Under the pieces are notes generated by a model. It was given only the letters and a program-made list of their open reading frames with translations. It was not told the DNA's origin and did no database searches. Source: Nitrospirae bacterium GWC2_57_13 (GTDB taxonomy: Bacteria; Nitrospirota; UBA9217). From it: a stretch of DNA of 50,288 bases. Positions 1-50,288 of the stretch are shown one piece after another (position 1 is the first letter of the stretch; each line of letters starts with the position of its first letter). Position numbers and translations under genes: made by a program. The DNA lies in NCBI GenBank assembly GCA_001805055.1, contig MHDZ01000070.1, positions 1-50,288 on the forward strand, given 5' to 3'.

Positions 1-370
1 TTTGAAACCCTGTGCCGTACATCTGGTAATTGGAAACCCAGGCATATGTTCCTCCATGGGAAAAAGCCGCTTCCACCGGCGATCCGCGATAGTCTCCCTG
101 ATAGTCCTTGTGACCGAAGGCCGAAAGCGACACCCGGTCCGAAATGGTCTTCACCAGGCCAAAGCTGCGGTCAAAAACGGATATCGTATGGCGATACATC
201 ATGTTCTGCGCGAAGAAGAGCCCGCTTCCCGAGTGCACCACCGACTTGGACGACAGGTCGCCGGTTATGGTCTCTTTCAGCGTCAACGCGCCGGCCTGCC
301 CTGCGGCAAGAACGCCGAAAAAAATACCTCCAACCATAATGCTTCGCTTCACTGCACAAATGAATGACAT
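1..370 (-). CDS. YncE/YVTN-type beta-propeller protein, exported (3' end outside window)
   Basis: The minus strand is open from an ATG at 370 to the window edge, giving 123 residues of an incomplete gene. An SD-like GGAGG lies about 7 bases upstream of the ATG. Residues 1-28 look like a signal peptide: basic start, hydrophobic core and a small-residue end near AGQAGA. The mature start contains SVVHSGSGLFFAQNMMYRHT and later the motif AAFSHGGTYAWVSNYQMYGT. I associate these with YncE-like (40-residue YVTN repeat) beta-propeller proteins of delta-proteobacteria and relatives. Function is not known from sequence; such proteins are periplasmic or cell-surface repeat proteins. It is divergent from mfd, with 125 bases between the two starts. 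The family call is fairly good, but the rest of the gene lies outside the window. Confidence 0.7.
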   Translation of the reverse strand, partial: MSFICAVKRSIMVGGIFFGVLAAGQAGALTLKETITGDLSSKSVVHSGSGLFFAQNMMYRHTISVFDRSFGLVKTISDRVSLSAFGHKDYQGDYRGSPVEAAFSHGGTYAWVSNYQMYGTGFQ

Positions 371-457
371 TGTCTGCCTCCGATAACGCGCGATGTTGCC
401 GTACTGTAAACGCGCAGCCCGCTGTTGTCAATACAAAGATGATGACAGCGGCCCGTG

Positions 458-486
458 TTGATTGTCTTGCGGCGCCATGGTATAGT
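458..486 (+). promoter_or_regulatory. sigma70-type promoter of mfd
   Basis: TTGATT (458-463), a 17-base spacer, then TATAGT (481-486). The expected start of transcription is near 493, only about 3 bases before the mfd ATG at 496. No Shine-Dalgarno is visible, so the mRNA may be leaderless. Confidence 0.6.
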
Positions 487-495
487 GCTCCCGCC

Positions 496-3400
496 ATGAA
501 GCCCCTTCGTCACATACTCTCTCCGGTTGTCGCCCGTATCCGCGAAGGGAAATCAAGTATACCTGTCGCCCAGCTGCAGGGCGCTTCCAAGGCCCTCTTT
601 TTGAGCGGTCTTCAGCGGGAGGCCGGCCGCCCTGTCCTTGTCATCACTGCACGGGAGGAGTCTGCCGTCGCGCTTGTCGACGACCTCCGGTTCTTTGATG
701 AACAGGGCGCGCTTTTCTTCGAAGCGATCGTGGAACGACCAATCCTGTCACTCCCGCCCTGGGGCGTCCTTCCCTTTGAGGCTGATTCACCCGCCATCAG
801 TACCGTGGGTGAACGTATGCGCTTCCTGTATCACCTGATATCGGGTGCTCCCGGCATCTTTGTTGTACCGGTCACGGGCCTGATGCAGAAGCTTCCTCCC
901 TGGGAGGCCTTTGCCGACGCGGTCATCACGCTGTCGCCGGAAACCGCCATCGATCCCGATCACCTGGCGGTGCGCCTCGTCGCGCTGGGATATGAATCAG
1001 CCTCCCTCGTCAGCCGTGTGGGCGAGTTCAGCCGCCGCGGAGGAATCATAGACATCTTCTCTCCCGCCCATGAAAACCCTCTTCGCTTCGAGCTCTTTGG
1101 CGATGCTGTTGAATCCTTGCGCGAGTTCGATCCTGAATCCCAGCGGTCGCTCCAAAGCCTTGCCACGGCCGTGATCCTGCCGGTGAAGGAACTGCTTCCC
1201 TGGCCAAAGCACAGGGCTGAACCGGAGGGCGTGAAACTGACGGAAGATATTGCTGCCGGAACACCTGCGCCGGGCGCGGAATTTCTTGCGCCTTTTTTGT
1301 ACCGCATGGATACGCTTTTCCGGTATCTGCCCGAAGAAAGCCTGCTGGTTCTGGACGAACCCGATGACCTTCGCGGCCGCTCCCGGACCTTCTGGGAAAA
1401 GATCCTGTCCGGCCGGGAAGAAGAGGCCGCGCAGGGCCGGTCCCTGCCTGAAGCCGAGGATCTCTATCTCGATATGGATCGGATCGACACGCATCTTCGG
1501 TCATTTCCCGTTCTCTCCCTCTCGCTGCTTTCTTCATCGCCGGACGCGCTCGCCATGGACACGCGGTCCTCTGCATCGCTCGGTGTAAGGCTCACGCGTC
1601 TGCCCGGGACCGGCGATGGCGATGACAGGCGTCCCGGCGACGGAGCAATTGCCGGCCTCGTGGAAAAGCTGAAACTGTGGCGTGAAAAAAACGACATCTT
1701 TATCGTCTGCGGGACTGAAGAATCCCGCGACCGCATCAAGACCCTTTTTGGCGAATACGGCCTTGGCGTTGAAACTTCCCGGTCCGGCGTCGCCGGCCCT
1801 GCGGGGCCCCGACCCGTCATGGCCCTGATCGGCAGGATCTCCAATGGCTTTTCCTGGCCGGCCCTGGGAACCCTTGTCATTGCGGAGGATGAGATCTTCG
1901 GCGCCAAGGTCCATCGCCCCCGAACACAGCGGTCAAAAGCATCGCCCTTTCTCTCGACCTTTAAGGAGCTGCGGCCCGGCGATTTCGTGGTGCACCGGGA
2001 CCACGGCGTGGGCGAGTACCAGGGGCTGACCCATATTGCCGTGGACGGCTTCGAGACCGACTACCTTACGTTGCGCTATGAGCCTGACGCGAAACTGCAC
2101 GTCCCGTTGTACAGCCTTGACAAGGTCCAGAAATACGTGGGCGTCGAAGGGAGCGCACCGAAGGTGGACCGCCTGGGCACGCCTGCCTGGAAGCGCACGC
2201 GGGAGCGGGTGAAGAAGGACATACTGGAGATGGCCCGTGAGCTCGCGGCCATCTACGCGGTCCGGGAGTCCATGGAGCGGCCGACCTTCTCGCCGCCCGA
2301 CACGCTCTACCGGGAATTCGCCGCGGCCTTTCCCTTTGATGAGACGCCGGACCAGCAGCGCGCCATCGACGAGGTGCTTGAAGACATGCGCAAACCCCGT
2401 CCCATGGACCGCCTGGTCTGCGGCGACGTGGGTTTCGGCAAGACCGAGGTGGCGCTGCGCGCAGCCTTCAAGGCCGTTGAAGACGGTGTGCAGGCCGCCG
2501 TGCTCGTGCCGACCACGCTCCTGGCGGACCAGCACTTCCGCACCTTCGCCGAGCGGCTCGCCCCCTTCTCGGTCCGCATCGACCTCCTGTCCCGGTTCCG
2601 CACCAAAGCGGAGCAGAAGGAGACCCTGGCAGGGCTCAAAAACGGTACCGTGGACATCGTGATCGGCACGCACCGCTTGCTGCAGCGCGACATCGCCTTC
2701 AAGAGCCTCGGCCTGCTCGTGGTGGACGAGGAGCATCGCTTCGGCGTGCGCCACAAGGAGCGGATCAAGGAGCTGAAAAAGATGGTGGACGTCCTCACCC
2801 TCACGGCCACGCCCATCCCCCGCACGCTCCACCTGTCCCTGGCCGGCATCCGCGACCTCTCGATCATCCAGACCCCTCCCATGGACCGGCAGTCCATCGA
2901 GGTCGTGCTGGCCCGATTCGGCCCCCGGGTCATCCGCGAGGCCATCGAGAAGGAGATCGAGCGGGGCGGACAGGTCTTCTTCGTGCACAACCGCGTGCGG
3001 GACATCGATCGCATTGCCGAATTCCTGCGCTCCCTCGTGCCGGCGGCGCGCGTCGGCGTGGGGCATGGTCAGATGAAGGACGAGGCCATCGAGATGGTCA
3101 TGTCCGACTTCGTTTCCGGCCGCCTGAACGTGCTCGTGACCACGACCATCATCGAATCAGGCATCGATATTCCCGCTGCGAACACGATCATCATCAACCG
3201 CGCCGACCGCTTCGGCCTTGCCGAGCTCTACCAGATCAAGGGTCGCGTGGGCCGCAGCCGCGAAAAGGCCTTTGCCTATCTTCTGACACCGGCTGAAGAG
3301 GTCTTGTCCGATGTGGCGCGCCAGCGGCTTCGGGCCATCCAGGAGCTGTCAGAGCTCGGCGCCGGGTTCCGCATCGCGGCCCAGGACCTGGAAAGCCGCG

Positions 3401-3957
3401 GCGCAGGCAATCTGCTCGGCAAGCAGCAATCAGGCCATATCGCCGCCGTGGGCATCGACCTGTACACCCAGATGATGGAAGAGGCCATGGCCGAATTGCG
3501 GGGCGAAGAGGTGCGGGAAGAGACGGATACGATCATCAACTTCCGGGCCTCGGCCTTCCTGCCCGACGACTACATAGCCGACCCCAGCCTGCGGCTTGCC
3601 GCCTACAAGGAGATCGCGGGCACCGTCAGTGAGCTGGACCTTGCGTCAATCGCCGACGGCCTGCGCGACCGCTACGGCGCCCTGCCGGAACAGGCCGCCA
3701 ACCTGCTGGCAATCATGGAAGTGAAGATCGCTGCAGGCCGGGCCAGGGTCGCCCGCATCGATGCAGGTCCCAAAAGCGCCAGCATCACCTTCAGCGAGGA
3801 CGCGAAGGTGCCGCCGGACCGGGTCATGGCGCTGCTGAAACGAAGCTCCGGGAAGATCAAGTTCGTTCCCGAGTATACCCTCCAGATCGTCCTGCCCGAC
3901 CCGTCGCTGGCAACGGCTGCGGCTGCGGTGAAAAAGTGCTTGCAGGAACTCTTTTAG
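496..3957 (+). CDS. mfd: Transcription-repair coupling factor Mfd
   Basis: This 1153-residue SF2 translocase removes stalled RNA polymerase at DNA lesions and recruits the UvrA/UvrB excision machinery in the cytoplasm. The N-terminal half is UvrB-like. A CarD/RNAP-interaction domain follows near residues 480-580 (LRPGDFVVHRDHGVGEYQGL). The translocase then shows Walker A GDVGFGKTE, the DEEH box (VVDEEHRFG), TATPIPRTL, and IIESGIDIPAANT with GRVGRS in the second RecA domain. The C-terminus is the TRCF domain. The frame is open upstream to 364, but MKPLRHILSP at 496 is the family-like start; the upstream residues have no family resemblance and the promoter lies inside them. Length is normal for Mfd. 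Confidence 0.95.
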   Translation: MKPLRHILSPVVARIREGKSSIPVAQLQGASKALFLSGLQREAGRPVLVITAREESAVALVDDLRFFDEQGALFFEAIVERPILSLPPWGVLPFEADSPAISTVGERMRFLYHLISGAPGIFVVPVTGLMQKLPPWEAFADAVITLSPETAIDPDHLAVRLVALGYESASLVSRVGEFSRRGGIIDIFSPAHENPLRFELFGDAVESLREFDPESQRSLQSLATAVILPVKELLPWPKHRAEPEGVKLTEDIAAGTPAPGAEFLAPFLYRMDTLFRYLPEESLLVLDEPDDLRGRSRTFWEKILSGREEEAAQGRSLPEAEDLYLDMDRIDTHLRSFPVLSLSLLSSSPDALAMDTRSSASLGVRLTRLPGTGDGDDRRPGDGAIAGLVEKLKLWREKNDIFIVCGTEESRDRIKTLFGEYGLGVETSRSGVAGPAGPRPVMALIGRISNGFSWPALGTLVIAEDEIFGAKVHRPRTQRSKASPFLSTFKELRPGDFVVHRDHGVGEYQGLTHIAVDGFETDYLTLRYEPDAKLHVPLYSLDKVQKYVGVEGSAPKVDRLGTPAWKRTRERVKKDILEMARELAAIYAVRESMERPTFSPPDTLYREFAAAFPFDETPDQQRAIDEVLEDMRKPRPMDRLVCGDVGFGKTEVALRAAFKAVEDGVQAAVLVPTTLLADQHFRTFAERLAPFSVRIDLLSRFRTKAEQKETLAGLKNGTVDIVIGTHRLLQRDIAFKSLGLLVVDEEHRFGVRHKERIKELKKMVDVLTLTATPIPRTLHLSLAGIRDLSIIQTPPMDRQSIEVVLARFGPRVIREAIEKEIERGGQVFFVHNRVRDIDRIAEFLRSLVPAARVGVGHGQMKDEAIEMVMSDFVSGRLNVLVTTTIIESGIDIPAANTIIINRADRFGLAELYQIKGRVGRSREKAFAYLLTPAEEVLSDVARQRLRAIQELSELGAGFRIAAQDLESRGAGNLLGKQQSGHIAAVGIDLYTQMMEEAMAELRGEEVREETDTIINFRASAFLPDDYIADPSLRLAAYKEIAGTVSELDLASIADGLRDRYGALPEQAANLLAIMEVKIAAGRARVARIDAGPKSASITFSEDAKVPPDRVMALLKRSSGKIKFVPEYTLQIVLPDPSLATAAAAVKKCLQELF

Positions 3958-8315: not shown

Positions 8316-8687
8316 TCAAGCTTTTCTTTCAAGCAATTTTTCTTCCTCTTCCTGCTGCGTCTTACATTCAATACACAAGGTCGTTACGGGCCGCGCTTCA
8401 AGCCGTTTCACGCCGATCTGTTCTCCGCAGGAATCACAGACCCCGTAGGTTCCTTCATCGATCCGGCCGATCGCTTCCTCGATCTTCTTAAGCAGCTTCT
8501 GCTCTCTGCCGCGAAGACGCAGCGTAAAATTATCATCAAGCTCGGCCACTGCCTGGTCGGTTGGATCAGGGATGCTCTCCTTCTCTTTTCCGATCCGGTC
8601 GTTCAGCGTCTGTTCGGCTTCCTGAAGAAGCGATTCTTTTTGTTTCTCCAGCTTCTTCTTGATCGCCATGAGTTTATTGCTGTTCAT
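8316..8687 (-). CDS. dksA: DksA/TraR-family zinc-finger transcription factor
   Basis: A 123-residue protein of the DksA family, which binds the RNA polymerase secondary channel and, with ppGpp, retunes transcription. A long charged N-terminal coiled coil (residues 1-75) carries the acidic tip. The C-terminus has the four-cysteine zinc finger CDSC(x17)CIEC. The ATG at 8687 has a GAGGTGG SD. A GTG three codons upstream is open but overlaps that SD. A good promoter lies about 60 bases upstream (TTGACG at 8784-8779, TATAGT at 8761-8756). The gene lies beside the origin-like block and converges on tRNA-Val. Confidence 0.9.
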   Translation of the reverse strand: MNSNKLMAIKKKLEKQKESLLQEAEQTLNDRIGKEKESIPDPTDQAVAELDDNFTLRLRGREQKLLKKIEEAIGRIDEGTYGVCDSCGEQIGVKRLEARPVTTLCIECKTQQEEEEKLLERKA

Positions 8688-8739
8688 CCACTCCACCTCT
8701 GCACAGAAAACAGATTCGGTACCCCGGAACGAGCGTAGC

Positions 8740-9146
8740 TGTAAAATAGTATATTACTATATCAAAAAAGAATTGAACCGTCAATTATAAAGTAAACTCA
8801 ACCCCTCTCCTGGGCTCTTCAGAGGGTTATCAAGAGAAGCTCTTCTATTATAAAGAATAAATAAAAATAGTAGTCTTAGTAGTAGGGCCTGTGAATTTGT
8901 GGAAAGAGTGCGTAAGGAATTGAAAGGCATCCCTTTTCTAAAAGGACAAGCCCGTGAGGTTCCGCTCAGGTGTACTGTGCAAGAATGTGAATAACGAGAA
9001 CGATGGCTTTGCGAACAGCCTTGTGAACGGCTTTTCAGATTTATCTGTGGAAAAGAATAATCGCATCGCTGACGCAGTAACTTATTCTATTTCCGCTGTA
9101 GAGAAAACAAGTCTGTCGTTGACGTTGCGAAAGTAACTGTGGTAGA
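8740..9146. other. Candidate replication origin (oriC-like): AT-rich stretch, DnaA-trio-like repeats and DnaA boxes
   Basis: A gene-free block of about 500 bases between dksA and an MFS gene. From left to right it has AT-rich DNA (8740-8867), six trinucleotides TAG TAG TCT TAG TAG TAG (8868-8885), GGGCC (8885-8889), then boxes of the TGTGNATAA type. The boxes are TGTGAATTT 8890, TGTGGAAAG 8898, TGTGCAAGA 8976, the perfect TGTGAATAA 8986-8994, TGTGAACGG 9022, TGTGGAAAA 9046 and a weak TGTGGTAGA 9138, all in one orientation. This order (box, GC-rich, TAG trios, AT-rich) is the basal origin unwinding arrangement described for Bacillus subtilis oriC. No dnaA gene is in the window, so this is a candidate only. 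A 60-codon open frame at 8954-9136 inside it is not convincing. Confidence 0.55.
8756..8784 (-). promoter_or_regulatory. Promoter of dksA
   Basis: On the minus strand, TTGACG (8784-8779), a 17-base spacer and TATAGT (8761-8756). This places the transcription start near 8749, inside the AT-rich arm of the origin-like block. Confidence 0.55.
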
Positions 9147-9216: not shown

Positions 9217-10446
9217 TTGGAGCCGGCAGAAAACAATCAGCACAACAAACCAGGGCCGCTCGGTTTTTTGAAGAAAGGGCTGAATCGTAATATCATCATT
9301 CTCGGCTTCGTCAGCTTTCTCAATGATGCCGCGTCAGAGATGATATATCCGTTGCTGCCGATATTTCTCACCGCCGTGCTGGGCGCTGGTCCCGTGGCGA
9401 TTGGCGTGATCGAAGGTTTTGCCGAGTCTACCGTTTCTTTTTTGAAGCTCTATTCAGGCTATCTGTCGGATCGCGTAAAGCGGCGCAAGAACTGGATCGT
9501 TGCCGGCTATGCTATCTCGAATATCATCCGGCCCTTGATCGCCGTGGCAACGTCCTGGACAGCCGTGCTCGGACTCAGGTTCTCCGACCGCGTCGGCAAA
9601 GGCCTCCGAACATCGCCGCGGGACGCGATGATCGCCGATTCAACACCGCCCGAAGCGCGCGGAACAGCCTACGGTTTTCATCGGGCCATGGACCACGGCG
9701 GCGCCATTGTCGGCCCGCTCCTCGCCATGGGACTGTTGTTTTTGCTGCAGGGCGATCTCAAGACCGTATTTCTTCTCTCCTTTATTCCCGGCACCTTGGC
9801 GGTGCTGCTGCTGCTGTTTGGACTGAAGGAACGCAAAGACAGACCGTCACCCGCGCCACCAGGCGCGCGTATCAACGTCCGCAGCGCCCTGGCAGAAGTG
9901 CCGCAGGGATTCAGAAAATATCTGCTCGTCCTTTTTATCTTCACGCTGGGTAATTCCACTGATGCATTTTTGCTGCTCCAGGCGCAGGCTCTCAGCGTTC
10001 CCGTGGTGCTGCTGCCGGCCATCTGGGTTGCCCTGCATATTGTCAAAATGGCCTTCTCCATACCTGGCGGCATTCTGTCCGACCGGTTCGGGCGGAAGCG
10101 CGTGATCATCGCCGGATGGATCGTGTACGCGCTGGTTTACGCCGGCTTTGGAGCAGCCAGCCAGCAGTGGCATGCCTGGGCCCTTTTCGGACTTTATGGG
10201 ATATACTTCGGTTTGACAGAAGGGGTGGAAAAGGCGCTCGTTGCCGACCTGGCGCCGGCTCATCTGCGCGGTTCCGGTTTCGGGCTTTATCATCTTGTGG
10301 TGGGGATCGGCGCGCTGCCGGCATCATTGCTCTTTGGGCTTATCTGGCAGGGGTATGGAGCGGCAGCAGCTTTCGGTTTCGGGTCTGCCTTGGCGCTCCT
10401 GGCAAGCGTGTTGATGATGGCGCTGCGTCTCGACGGGAAGAAGTAA
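9217..10446 (+). CDS. Major facilitator superfamily transporter
   Basis: A 409-residue inner-membrane protein with about 12 hydrophobic segments and a loop of charged residues near 205-225 between the halves. The MFS signature between TM2 and TM3 is SGYLSDRVKRRKNW; its repeat in the second half is GGILSDRFGRKRVI. The region DRVGKGLRTSPRDAMIADS is typical of a bacterial MFS subgroup of unknown substrate. The start is a TTG at 9217 with SD AAGGAG 9 bases upstream; no in-frame ATG precedes the first membrane segment. It stands alone next to the origin-like block. Substrate and direction of transport cannot be read from sequence. Confidence 0.85.
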   Translation: MEPAENNQHNKPGPLGFLKKGLNRNIIILGFVSFLNDAASEMIYPLLPIFLTAVLGAGPVAIGVIEGFAESTVSFLKLYSGYLSDRVKRRKNWIVAGYAISNIIRPLIAVATSWTAVLGLRFSDRVGKGLRTSPRDAMIADSTPPEARGTAYGFHRAMDHGGAIVGPLLAMGLLFLLQGDLKTVFLLSFIPGTLAVLLLLFGLKERKDRPSPAPPGARINVRSALAEVPQGFRKYLLVLFIFTLGNSTDAFLLLQAQALSVPVVLLPAIWVALHIVKMAFSIPGGILSDRFGRKRVIIAGWIVYALVYAGFGAASQQWHAWALFGLYGIYFGLTEGVEKALVADLAPAHLRGSGFGLYHLVVGIGALPASLLFGLIWQGYGAAAAFGFGSALALLASVLMMALRLDGKK

Positions 10447-10519: not shown

Positions 10520-10873
10520 TTAACCAGGAGGCCAGGCAAAGACGCGGCCGCCGAGCAGGTGCAGATGGATATGGAACACGGTTTGGCCCGCCTCCCGCCC
10601 GTTGTTGATTACCATTCGGTATCCGCCGCCAATGAGGCCGTTCTCAGAAGCGAGCTTTGCAGCCACCCAGAAGAGATGTCCAACAAGCTCCCGGTCCTTG
10701 TCGGTCATACTCGAGATGTCGGGGATGTGCTTCCTCGGAACGATCAGGACATGCACCGGCGCCTGAGGATTGATGTCCTCAAAGGCAATTGCGAGCTGGT
10801 CTTCGTAAACAGTCTTTGCCGGAATTTGTTGTGCTATGATCTTGCAAAAAAGACATCCCTGATCAGCGCTCAT
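10520..10873 (-). CDS. HIT-family protein (histidine triad nucleotide-binding)
   Basis: A 117-residue protein of the HINT branch, whose members hydrolyse adenosine phosphoramidates and related nucleotides. It opens with CLFCKIIAQQIPAK and ends with the triad motif QTVFHIHLHLLGGR (H-x-H-x-H). Internal landmarks are VYEDQLAIAFEDINPQAPVH and VPRKHI. The ATG at 10873 has an AGGAGG SD. The stretch before it on the plus strand (10447-10519) includes a degenerate repeat-like GGACACAGAT segment. It is in the same orientation as hisI but separated from it by a repeat. Confidence 0.92.
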   Translation of the reverse strand: MSADQGCLFCKIIAQQIPAKTVYEDQLAIAFEDINPQAPVHVLIVPRKHIPDISSMTDKDRELVGHLFWVAAKLASENGLIGGGYRMVINNGREAGQTVFHIHLHLLGGRVFAWPPG

Positions 10874-48699: not shown

Positions 48700-50288
48700 A
48701 TGCCCGAATTTCACCATAAAAAGCTCTTCGACAAGTCGCCTTCCCTTCTCAAGGGCAATCTTCAGATTATTGCCTGTGCTGGTGCGGGGAAGACTGAGTT
48801 CGTCTCTGAGAGGATTGCTTATCAGATCTACAAAGAAATAGCAAAACCTGGCCAGATTGTAGCCTTCACGTTCACGGAAAAAGCAGCAGAAGAGCTGAAA
48901 TTCCGCATCCGGTCAAAGATCAAGACGCTCATTGGAAGGCAAACGGATATCGGGGATATTTATACCGGGACAATTCACGCTTTTGCCTTCAGGCTGCTTC
49001 AGGAGTTCATTCCGCGTTACCGAGCTTATGATATGTTAGATGAGGTCGGCAGGCTCGCTTTCCTCTCGTCTATACGAAACGATATTGATCTCGACCACCT
49101 CACGAATTCGCTTCTTAAAAGATTCAGCAAACCTTATAATCGAACGAAGCAGAACTGGGTTTTCAAGACATTCATTCGAGACGTTGACTTCTTCAGGGAA
49201 GAAGGCCTCACGCCGAATAAAGCAGTCACAGACAGTTTTCGAAATGCCTATTCCGTCTATCTCCAAAAGCTGGAAGAAAAACGATTTCTCGATTTTTCCA
49301 GCATTTTGCGAATCGCCGTTGATACACTGAAGAGTGATAAAAAAACAAGAAACAAAGTTCAATCACAGTATAAATTCTTCACTGTTGATGAATATCAGGA
49401 TGTTAATCCCATCCAGGAAGAGCTGATACAGCTTATTTCAAACAAGGAGAACGTATGCATCGTTGGAGATGATGACCAGTCGATTTATCAGTGGCGTGGT
49501 GCAGATGTTCGTAATATCCAATCGTTCCGAAAGCGATACAAGAATGTTACTACTCATGAGTTGCTTGTTAATCGAAGGAGTCACGACGCCATTGTAAAAG
49601 CGTCAAGCGATCTTATTACCGAAAACAGTCCGCGAATTCCAAAGTCAATCAAAGACAAGGGGTTGGTTTCTCAAAGAGGCGATCTATATAAGATTGTCTT
49701 CAATAAGCAAGAAGACGAAGTCCAGTGGATCAAAGATAAAATTCAAGCCCTTGCGGGAACGGAATATAAGGATGGCGACAAGATCCGTAGATTAAAGTAT
49801 TCAGATATGGCGCTGCTCTTCCGATCGATAAGTAATGAAGCCAGCCCGTATATCGATGAGCTGAACGCCAGTGATATTCCGCTTGTGTATTCAGGCACAG
49901 GCGGCCTTTTTGATACTCCGGAGGTCTCGTGCATTATCCGTACGCTTGAATACATTTCAGAATGTGATAAGGACGTTATCTATAATGATCGTTTCTTAAA
50001 GAACGTATTCGACGACCTTCCACGAGTATTTACTCTTACCCTGAAACAATTTATAACCGGGGTCATCAAGATACAAGATTGGGCACGAGGCCAGAGGCGT
50101 CTTTCCCTTCAAGGGCCGTATCAGCAGCTATTAGGTTTGCTCAGCCTTTCTGATTCGGCAATCCATGCGCCGAGCAATGAGGTCATCCTCTATAATCTCG
50201 GAAGACTAAGCCAGGCAATCTCTGATTATGAGAACTCCCGAGAATATCTGACCTTCAGCAGCATTAAAGACTTCATCTGGTTTATCCG
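48700..50288 (+). CDS. UvrD/Rep-family superfamily I helicase (3' end outside window)
   Basis: 529 codons of an ATP-dependent 3'-5' DNA helicase that continues past the edge. Motifs appear in order: Walker A ACAGAGKT (residues 25-32), Ia FTFTEKAAEEL, TGTIHAFAF, motif II VDEYQDVNP (about 229-237), III VGDDDQSIYQWRGAD, IV LLVNRRS and a later ALLFRS-type motif. The start MPEFHHKKLF at 48700 is the only in-frame start after a stop at 48682, but has no SD. Base use is AT-richer than the rest of the window. Repair or mobile/defence-associated roles are both possible; the missing downstream genes would decide. Confidence 0.9.
   Translation, partial: MPEFHHKKLFDKSPSLLKGNLQIIACAGAGKTEFVSERIAYQIYKEIAKPGQIVAFTFTEKAAEELKFRIRSKIKTLIGRQTDIGDIYTGTIHAFAFRLLQEFIPRYRAYDMLDEVGRLAFLSSIRNDIDLDHLTNSLLKRFSKPYNRTKQNWVFKTFIRDVDFFREEGLTPNKAVTDSFRNAYSVYLQKLEEKRFLDFSSILRIAVDTLKSDKKTRNKVQSQYKFFTVDEYQDVNPIQEELIQLISNKENVCIVGDDDQSIYQWRGADVRNIQSFRKRYKNVTTHELLVNRRSHDAIVKASSDLITENSPRIPKSIKDKGLVSQRGDLYKIVFNKQEDEVQWIKDKIQALAGTEYKDGDKIRRLKYSDMALLFRSISNEASPYIDELNASDIPLVYSGTGGLFDTPEVSCIIRTLEYISECDKDVIYNDRFLKNVFDDLPRVFTLTLKQFITGVIKIQDWARGQRRLSLQGPYQQLLGLLSLSDSAIHAPSNEVILYNLGRLSQAISDYENSREYLTFSSIKDFIWFI

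Follow-up and report, generated by a model that had tools for sequence, protein, structure and literature searches.

Where does the chromosome of Nitrospirae bacterium GWC2_57_13 begin to replicate, and can an origin-like block that lies next to dksA rather than dnaA be that place? The window analysed here, the whole stretch of DNA around the block, is positions 1-50,288 of contig C70 (52,010 bp), part of a draft genome of 3.32 Mb and 105 unordered contigs; its GC content is about 59% over most of its length vs 42% at 49,001-50,000. The initial annotation read the block as the chromosome origin, or as an ectopic copy of it. The first of these readings is supported by the block's being the single convincing site of its kind in the genome, by its conservation in relatives and by a local GC skew minimum at 8810. 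We put at roughly 0.9 the probability that the block, as read from its sequence, is the single chromosomal oriC, a Bacillus-type basal unwinding element parted from dnaA-gyrB-gyrA by rearrangement.

The block sits in a 520 bp intergenic region, with a dksA-family gene (- strand) on one side and an MFS gene (+ strand) on the other. On the + strand it reads AT-rich DNA, TAGTAGTCTTAGTAGTAG, GGCC, TGTGAATTT with TGTGGAAAG, and then boxes at 8976, 8986, 9046 and 9097; the opposite strand reads TTATCCACA-like boxes, a GC-rich spacer and CTA repeats. The features are:

364-3957, + strand: mfd-like gene near the left end of C70 (synteny).
8316-8696, - strand: dksA-family gene, left neighbour (Pfam DksA_N, zf-dskA_traR).
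8740-8867, + strand: AT-rich flank that probably belongs to the DNA unwinding element (AT content).
8868-8885, + strand: DnaA-trios TAGTAGTCTTAGTAGTAG, TAG TAG TCT TAG TAG TAG, five TAG trios and one interruption (sequence).
8886-8889, + strand: GC-rich spacer GGCC from the trios to the first box (sequence; a similar short spacer is at the same place in family members).
8890-8906, - strand: tandem DnaA boxes TGTGAATTT (8890-8898) and TGTGGAAAG (8898-8906), sharing one base (sequence, alignment).
8976-8984, - strand: DnaA box-like TGTGCAAGA (mismatch scan).
8986-8994, - strand: perfect DnaA box, TGTGAATAA on the + strand and TTATTCACA on the - strand (mismatch scan).
9046-9054, - strand: DnaA box with one mismatch, TTTTCCACA on the - strand (mismatch scan).
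9097-9105, - strand: weak DnaA box-like TGTAGAGAA (mismatch scan).
9217-10446, + strand: MFS transporter gene, right neighbour (Pfam MFS_1; same place in the relative G002).
10520-10873, - strand: HIT-family gene; in most family relatives it follows the block directly on the right (Pfam HIT).

The initial annotation had described AT-rich DNA, trios at 8868-8885, a GC step, seven boxes in one orientation and a perfect box at 8986-8994, and all of these are present as it had them. Its GGGCC needs trimming: the GC step is there, the spacer itself being GGCC (8886-8889) and the extra G the last base of the trios. Its caution that gene orientation does not flip sharply here was well placed—all six genes of at least 150 aa on the left, and most of those on the right, read on the + strand. 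AT content is 70% over 8740-8885, and the best 60 bp, starting at 8825, reach 75%, in the top 0.1% of 60-mers in 1.01 Mb of the genome. The uninterrupted trio run TAGTAGTAG occupies 8877-8885, and two further trios precede the TCT. Seven + strand matches to TGTGNATAA with at most 2 mismatches start at 8890, 8898, 8907, 8976, 8986, 9046 and 9097, those at 8907 and 9097 being weak.

Published rules for the basal unwinding system ask for three or more trios and for a box, often in tandem, that has no more than 2 mismatches and lies 0-16 bp from them (PMC8287927). Here TAGTAGTAG supplies at least three contiguous trios with a central A and the consensus 5'-TAG-3', and TGTGGAAAG supplies the box, with 2 mismatches and 12 bp from the trios, the weaker TGTGAATTT lying in between. 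The block also has the makings of an oriC in the usual sense: it is an intergenic DnaA box cluster adjoining an AT-rich unwinding element, it lies at a local cumulative GC skew minimum (in the window and in the 92 kb joined piece described below), and it is kept in relatives at the origin position. One usual trait, adjacency to dnaA, is absent, dnaA being on a separate contig; adjacency is not a defining requirement of oriC, because the E. coli oriC also lacks it.

In order and strand the block matches the incC region of the B. subtilis oriC (DnaA boxes 6/7, spacer, DnaA-trios; EMBO J 2019, PMC6669920; NAR 2021, PMC8287927), the shared parts being tandem boxes, a short GC-rich spacer, 3'-GAT-5' trios and AT-rich DNA. 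The likeness to B. subtilis in the order of boxes, GC step, TAG trios and AT-rich DNA had been proposed at the outset; the sequence confirms it, and the arrangement is unique in the genome. By position, the boxes at 8890-8906 correspond to boxes 7 and 6 of B. subtilis, and the better of them, at 12 bp from the trios, is within the 0-16 bp rule and close to the commonest distance of 13 bp. Unlike its B. subtilis counterpart, the block is not beside dnaA, has one interrupted trio (TCT) and carries boxes that deviate from TTATCCACA. In the B. subtilis basal unwinding system, boxes load DnaA-ATP onto the trios and the strands separate (PMC6669920, PMC8287927). Borrowing this mechanism for what is here sequence anatomy alone, we propose that DnaA would bind the double-stranded tandem boxes at 8890-8906, with the boxes further right assisting; that an ATP-dependent DnaA oligomer would then grow past GGCC to cover the TAG trios on one of the strands; and that the AT-rich DNA left of the trios would open for helicase loading. 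By this analogy, strand opening and chromosome replication would start at the block.

The closest named relatives are Nitrospirae/Nitrospirota MAGs, for example GWC2_56_14 and Hainich-H41-bin024 (G002). Sought in related genomes, the block proved to be present, normally just upstream of dnaA, in nine relatives of the same family and in other families. DNA searches matched two family genomes and, in another family, a site immediately upstream of dnaA; when 296 genomes from the phylum were scanned with a pattern, the matches bearing an AT tract lay ~250-300 bp upstream of dnaA and on its strand. Matches to the pattern away from dnaA, which had no AT tract, were taken as chance. Eight loci from other families have the block directly upstream of dnaA, at a distance that in other families is about 0.25-0.5 kb. 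Two profiles were built: R1 contained the window block itself and was replaced in the key test by R2, made from eight blocks that lie upstream of dnaA in other Nitrospirota families, with zero members of the window genome's own family. The best match of R2 in each of nine other family genomes is the orthologous block. In eight of these nine relatives the block shares contig and strand with dnaA: seven have it 2.2-2.9 kb upstream of the gene, and G002 has it 16.7 kb upstream on one contig; in the ninth, G012, the block is present and the contig is too short to reach dnaA. AT tract, trios, spacer and tandem boxes are found throughout the ten family sequences, and an alignment of 11 Nitrospirota blocks has several invariant or near-invariant trio columns and keeps the tandem box pattern TGT..A...GT in 11/11. 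Neither profile gave a convincing block in G011, G013 and G007, which belong to one genus of the family, and in G011 the 10.7 kb upstream of dnaA hold none; these genomes may have an origin that has moved or diverged, or one that falls in a gap of the assembly. Some Nitrospirota genomes (G250, G290, G026 and some others) have 5-11 matches to the DnaA ATPase-domain family, which could be additional proteins of the DnaA type or else related ATPases, IstB for example.

The window genome has one dnaA, intact, at 63.0 kb on contig C10. A better box-GC-trio arrangement was sought beside it, and upstream of dnaA on C10 there are boxes at most and no trios. The block is indeed next to dksA rather than dnaA, as had been noted: dksA (8316-8696) adjoins it, and the remaining ~40 kb of C70 to its right hold no dnaA. 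Counted from contig ends, at least 31 kb separate the block from dnaA, a minimum that rises to about 66 kb if contig C76 adjoins C70 on the left.

Most family relatives have the gene order mnmG-mnmE-X-NUDIX-AK-HD-DsrE-(block)-HIT-...-DsrE2-TusA-dnaA-gyrB-gyrA (REARRANGEMENT). The left side is mfd-ppiC-surA-rlmI-dksA-(block) in this genome and in G002, and surA-rlmI-dksA-(block) in G004; HIT is to the right of the block in all three. Although dksA also adjoins the origin in G002 and G004, it lies elsewhere in most relatives, at a distance from the origin, and was rejected as a conserved origin marker; so was the MFS gene, the MFS loci of other named relatives having no block. A three-gene tree for the ancestral left flank, with support of 69-84 at deep nodes, did not settle what that flank was. 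G002 continues from mfd to X-mnmE-mnmG, and C76 here starts X-mnmE-mnmG-rsmG-parS. Window positions 1-364 and C76 positions 1-217 are open ends of beta-propeller-like genes in compatible orientation, possibly halves of one gene; the C70 fragment, judged by eye, had no Pfam match, a comparison of the beta-propeller-like contig-end fragment with solved structures gave no match, and no sequence overlap between C70 and C76 was found. From the synteny with G002 (one relative) and the beta-propeller-like fragments at both ends, we infer that C70 and C76 are neighbours, with C76 on the left. On C10, DsrE-HD-AK-NUDIX is inverted directly upstream of DsrE2-TusA-dnaA, an order absent from relatives, and it appears that the dnaA cluster left the origin with the inverted NUDIX block.

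Could the block be the origin and its separation from dnaA an artefact of assembly or binning, the real distance being about 2-3 kb as in relatives? We consider this unlikely. With a draft of 105 contigs, one wrong join could create the inverted order peculiar to C10, yet the dksA-rlmI-surA left flank is common to two independent drafts (G002, G004), G002 also shares the run of genes between mfd and HIT, MFS included, and itself has block and dnaA 16.7 kb apart on one contig, and HIT stands right of the block as in relatives with no dnaA in the ~40 kb that follow. A misassembly in C70 or C10 could have exaggerated the separation.

Taken singly, DnaA boxes are no commoner in the window than expected (12 matches vs 13.8), and the seven boxes in 261 bp are one of the top five clusters in 1.01 Mb, not a unique one. 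The loose published trio rule ((.A.)x3 + box), with 509 matches in 1 Mb, gives no discrimination. The ordered trio-GC-box pattern TAGTAGNNNNTGTNNANNNGTNNNA occurs once in the 3.32 Mb genome, and a second pattern, TAGTAGTAGNNNNTGTG, has one exact genome match and one 1-mismatch site. There are three TAG-TAG-TAG tracts in 1.01 Mb, and only that of the block has a box (at most 2 mismatches) within 16 bp. Searching the genome with R2 returned one site only, the window block (E = 1.5e-6), and no second block was found by either profile; by two profile models and two patterns, the window site is the only convincing one in this genome. The ordered arrangement, unlike single boxes or box density, exceeds chance.

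The order of trios, spacer and AT DNA is conserved while the neighbouring genes differ between genera, in most relatives the block is found close to dnaA, where oriC usually lies, and no further such block was found in the genome. These observations make two non-origin readings of the block very unlikely, a box cluster of the datA/DARS kind that titrates DnaA or serves in regulation, and a promoter region between dksA and MFS under DnaA control, even though the block lies between divergently transcribed genes and its box count is equalled at about four other places in 1 Mb.

Cumulative GC skew is consistent with the block as oriC. Within the window it is lowest at 8810, some 50 bp away from the block; with C76 joined on the left the skew forms a V over 92 kb with its minimum at the same base, 48 bp from the block. 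With 20 kb flanks, a test that depends on the inferred C76 join, no position outside the joined piece matches the origin's skew switch (821 tested, ~1 Mb; the null was drawn from 1.01 Mb of genome); with 8 kb flanks the switch in the window is ordinary, 97 of 1849 positions doing as well. Neither box density nor local skew was accepted as proof on its own, because other places in the genome equal the block in each. In nine of ten family genomes the skew passes from negative on the left of the block to positive on its right; the left arm of G006 is not negative. The skew minimum is 0.9 kb from the block on the 100 kb contig of G009, and 6 kb from it in G002. The dnaA contig, C10, has a separate skew V, lowest at 25 kb, a point that lies 38 kb from dnaA and has no origin block; this V is possibly the trace of a rearrangement. 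That the block is a second, inactive or ectopic copy, with the active origin elsewhere, for example near this 25 kb minimum, is scarcely credible, since the genome holds one copy: for all that C10 has a V of its own, neither profile finds another block, the block to be expected upstream of dnaA is missing there, and the skew switch at the window block is the strongest with 20 kb flanks in about 1 Mb.

A parS-like variant, TGTTCCACGTGGAACA, recurs across the family, often paired. It lies about 9-13 kb left of the block as pairs in G001, G008 and G009 and singly in G005. In this genome a pair occupies C76 7145-7160 and 8440-8455, flanking the gene next to rsmG, about 16 kb left of the block if C76 is joined. 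The oriC block is probably still near its other usual partners, mnmE-mnmG-rsmG-parS.

The E. coli oriC is likewise parted from dnaA by rearrangement; it adjoins mnmG (gidA), whereas mnmE-mnmG are predicted to lie about 11-15 kb left of the block here. It is regarded as displaced and diverged from the ancestral box-trio arrangement (PMC6669920), which the displaced Nitrospirota block, by contrast, keeps intact. Synechococcus lividus PCC 6715 is recorded in DoriC 10 with an origin far from dnaA (PMC6323995, which also carries the gidA remark). As in that case, the block is a box cluster far from dnaA in a group with origins usually near replication genes; it differs in belonging to another phylum and in that linked, stretched and broken states occur within one family.

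Displaced origins were known before, as were trios and the basal unwinding system, and the present case joins them. It seems rather likely, at a lower confidence than we give to the origin itself, that dnaA-gyrB-gyrA left the origin within one family, with the box-trio element intact and the mnmEG-rsmG-parS flank probably kept. If so, the family would offer a natural series, at about 2 kb, 17 kb and over 60 kb, in which linkage to dnaA can be given up and the basal unwinding element still kept. A literature search found no experimental origin for the phylum Nitrospirota; the reading of the block as oriC gives an origin position for an uncultured family of that phylum, and the DnaA box-spacer-trio unit is conserved in several Nitrospirota families. 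With linked, stretched and broken states in close relatives, it can be asked whether a displaced origin must lose its ancestral unwinding element, a loss that has been proposed for the displaced E. coli origin and that did not occur here.
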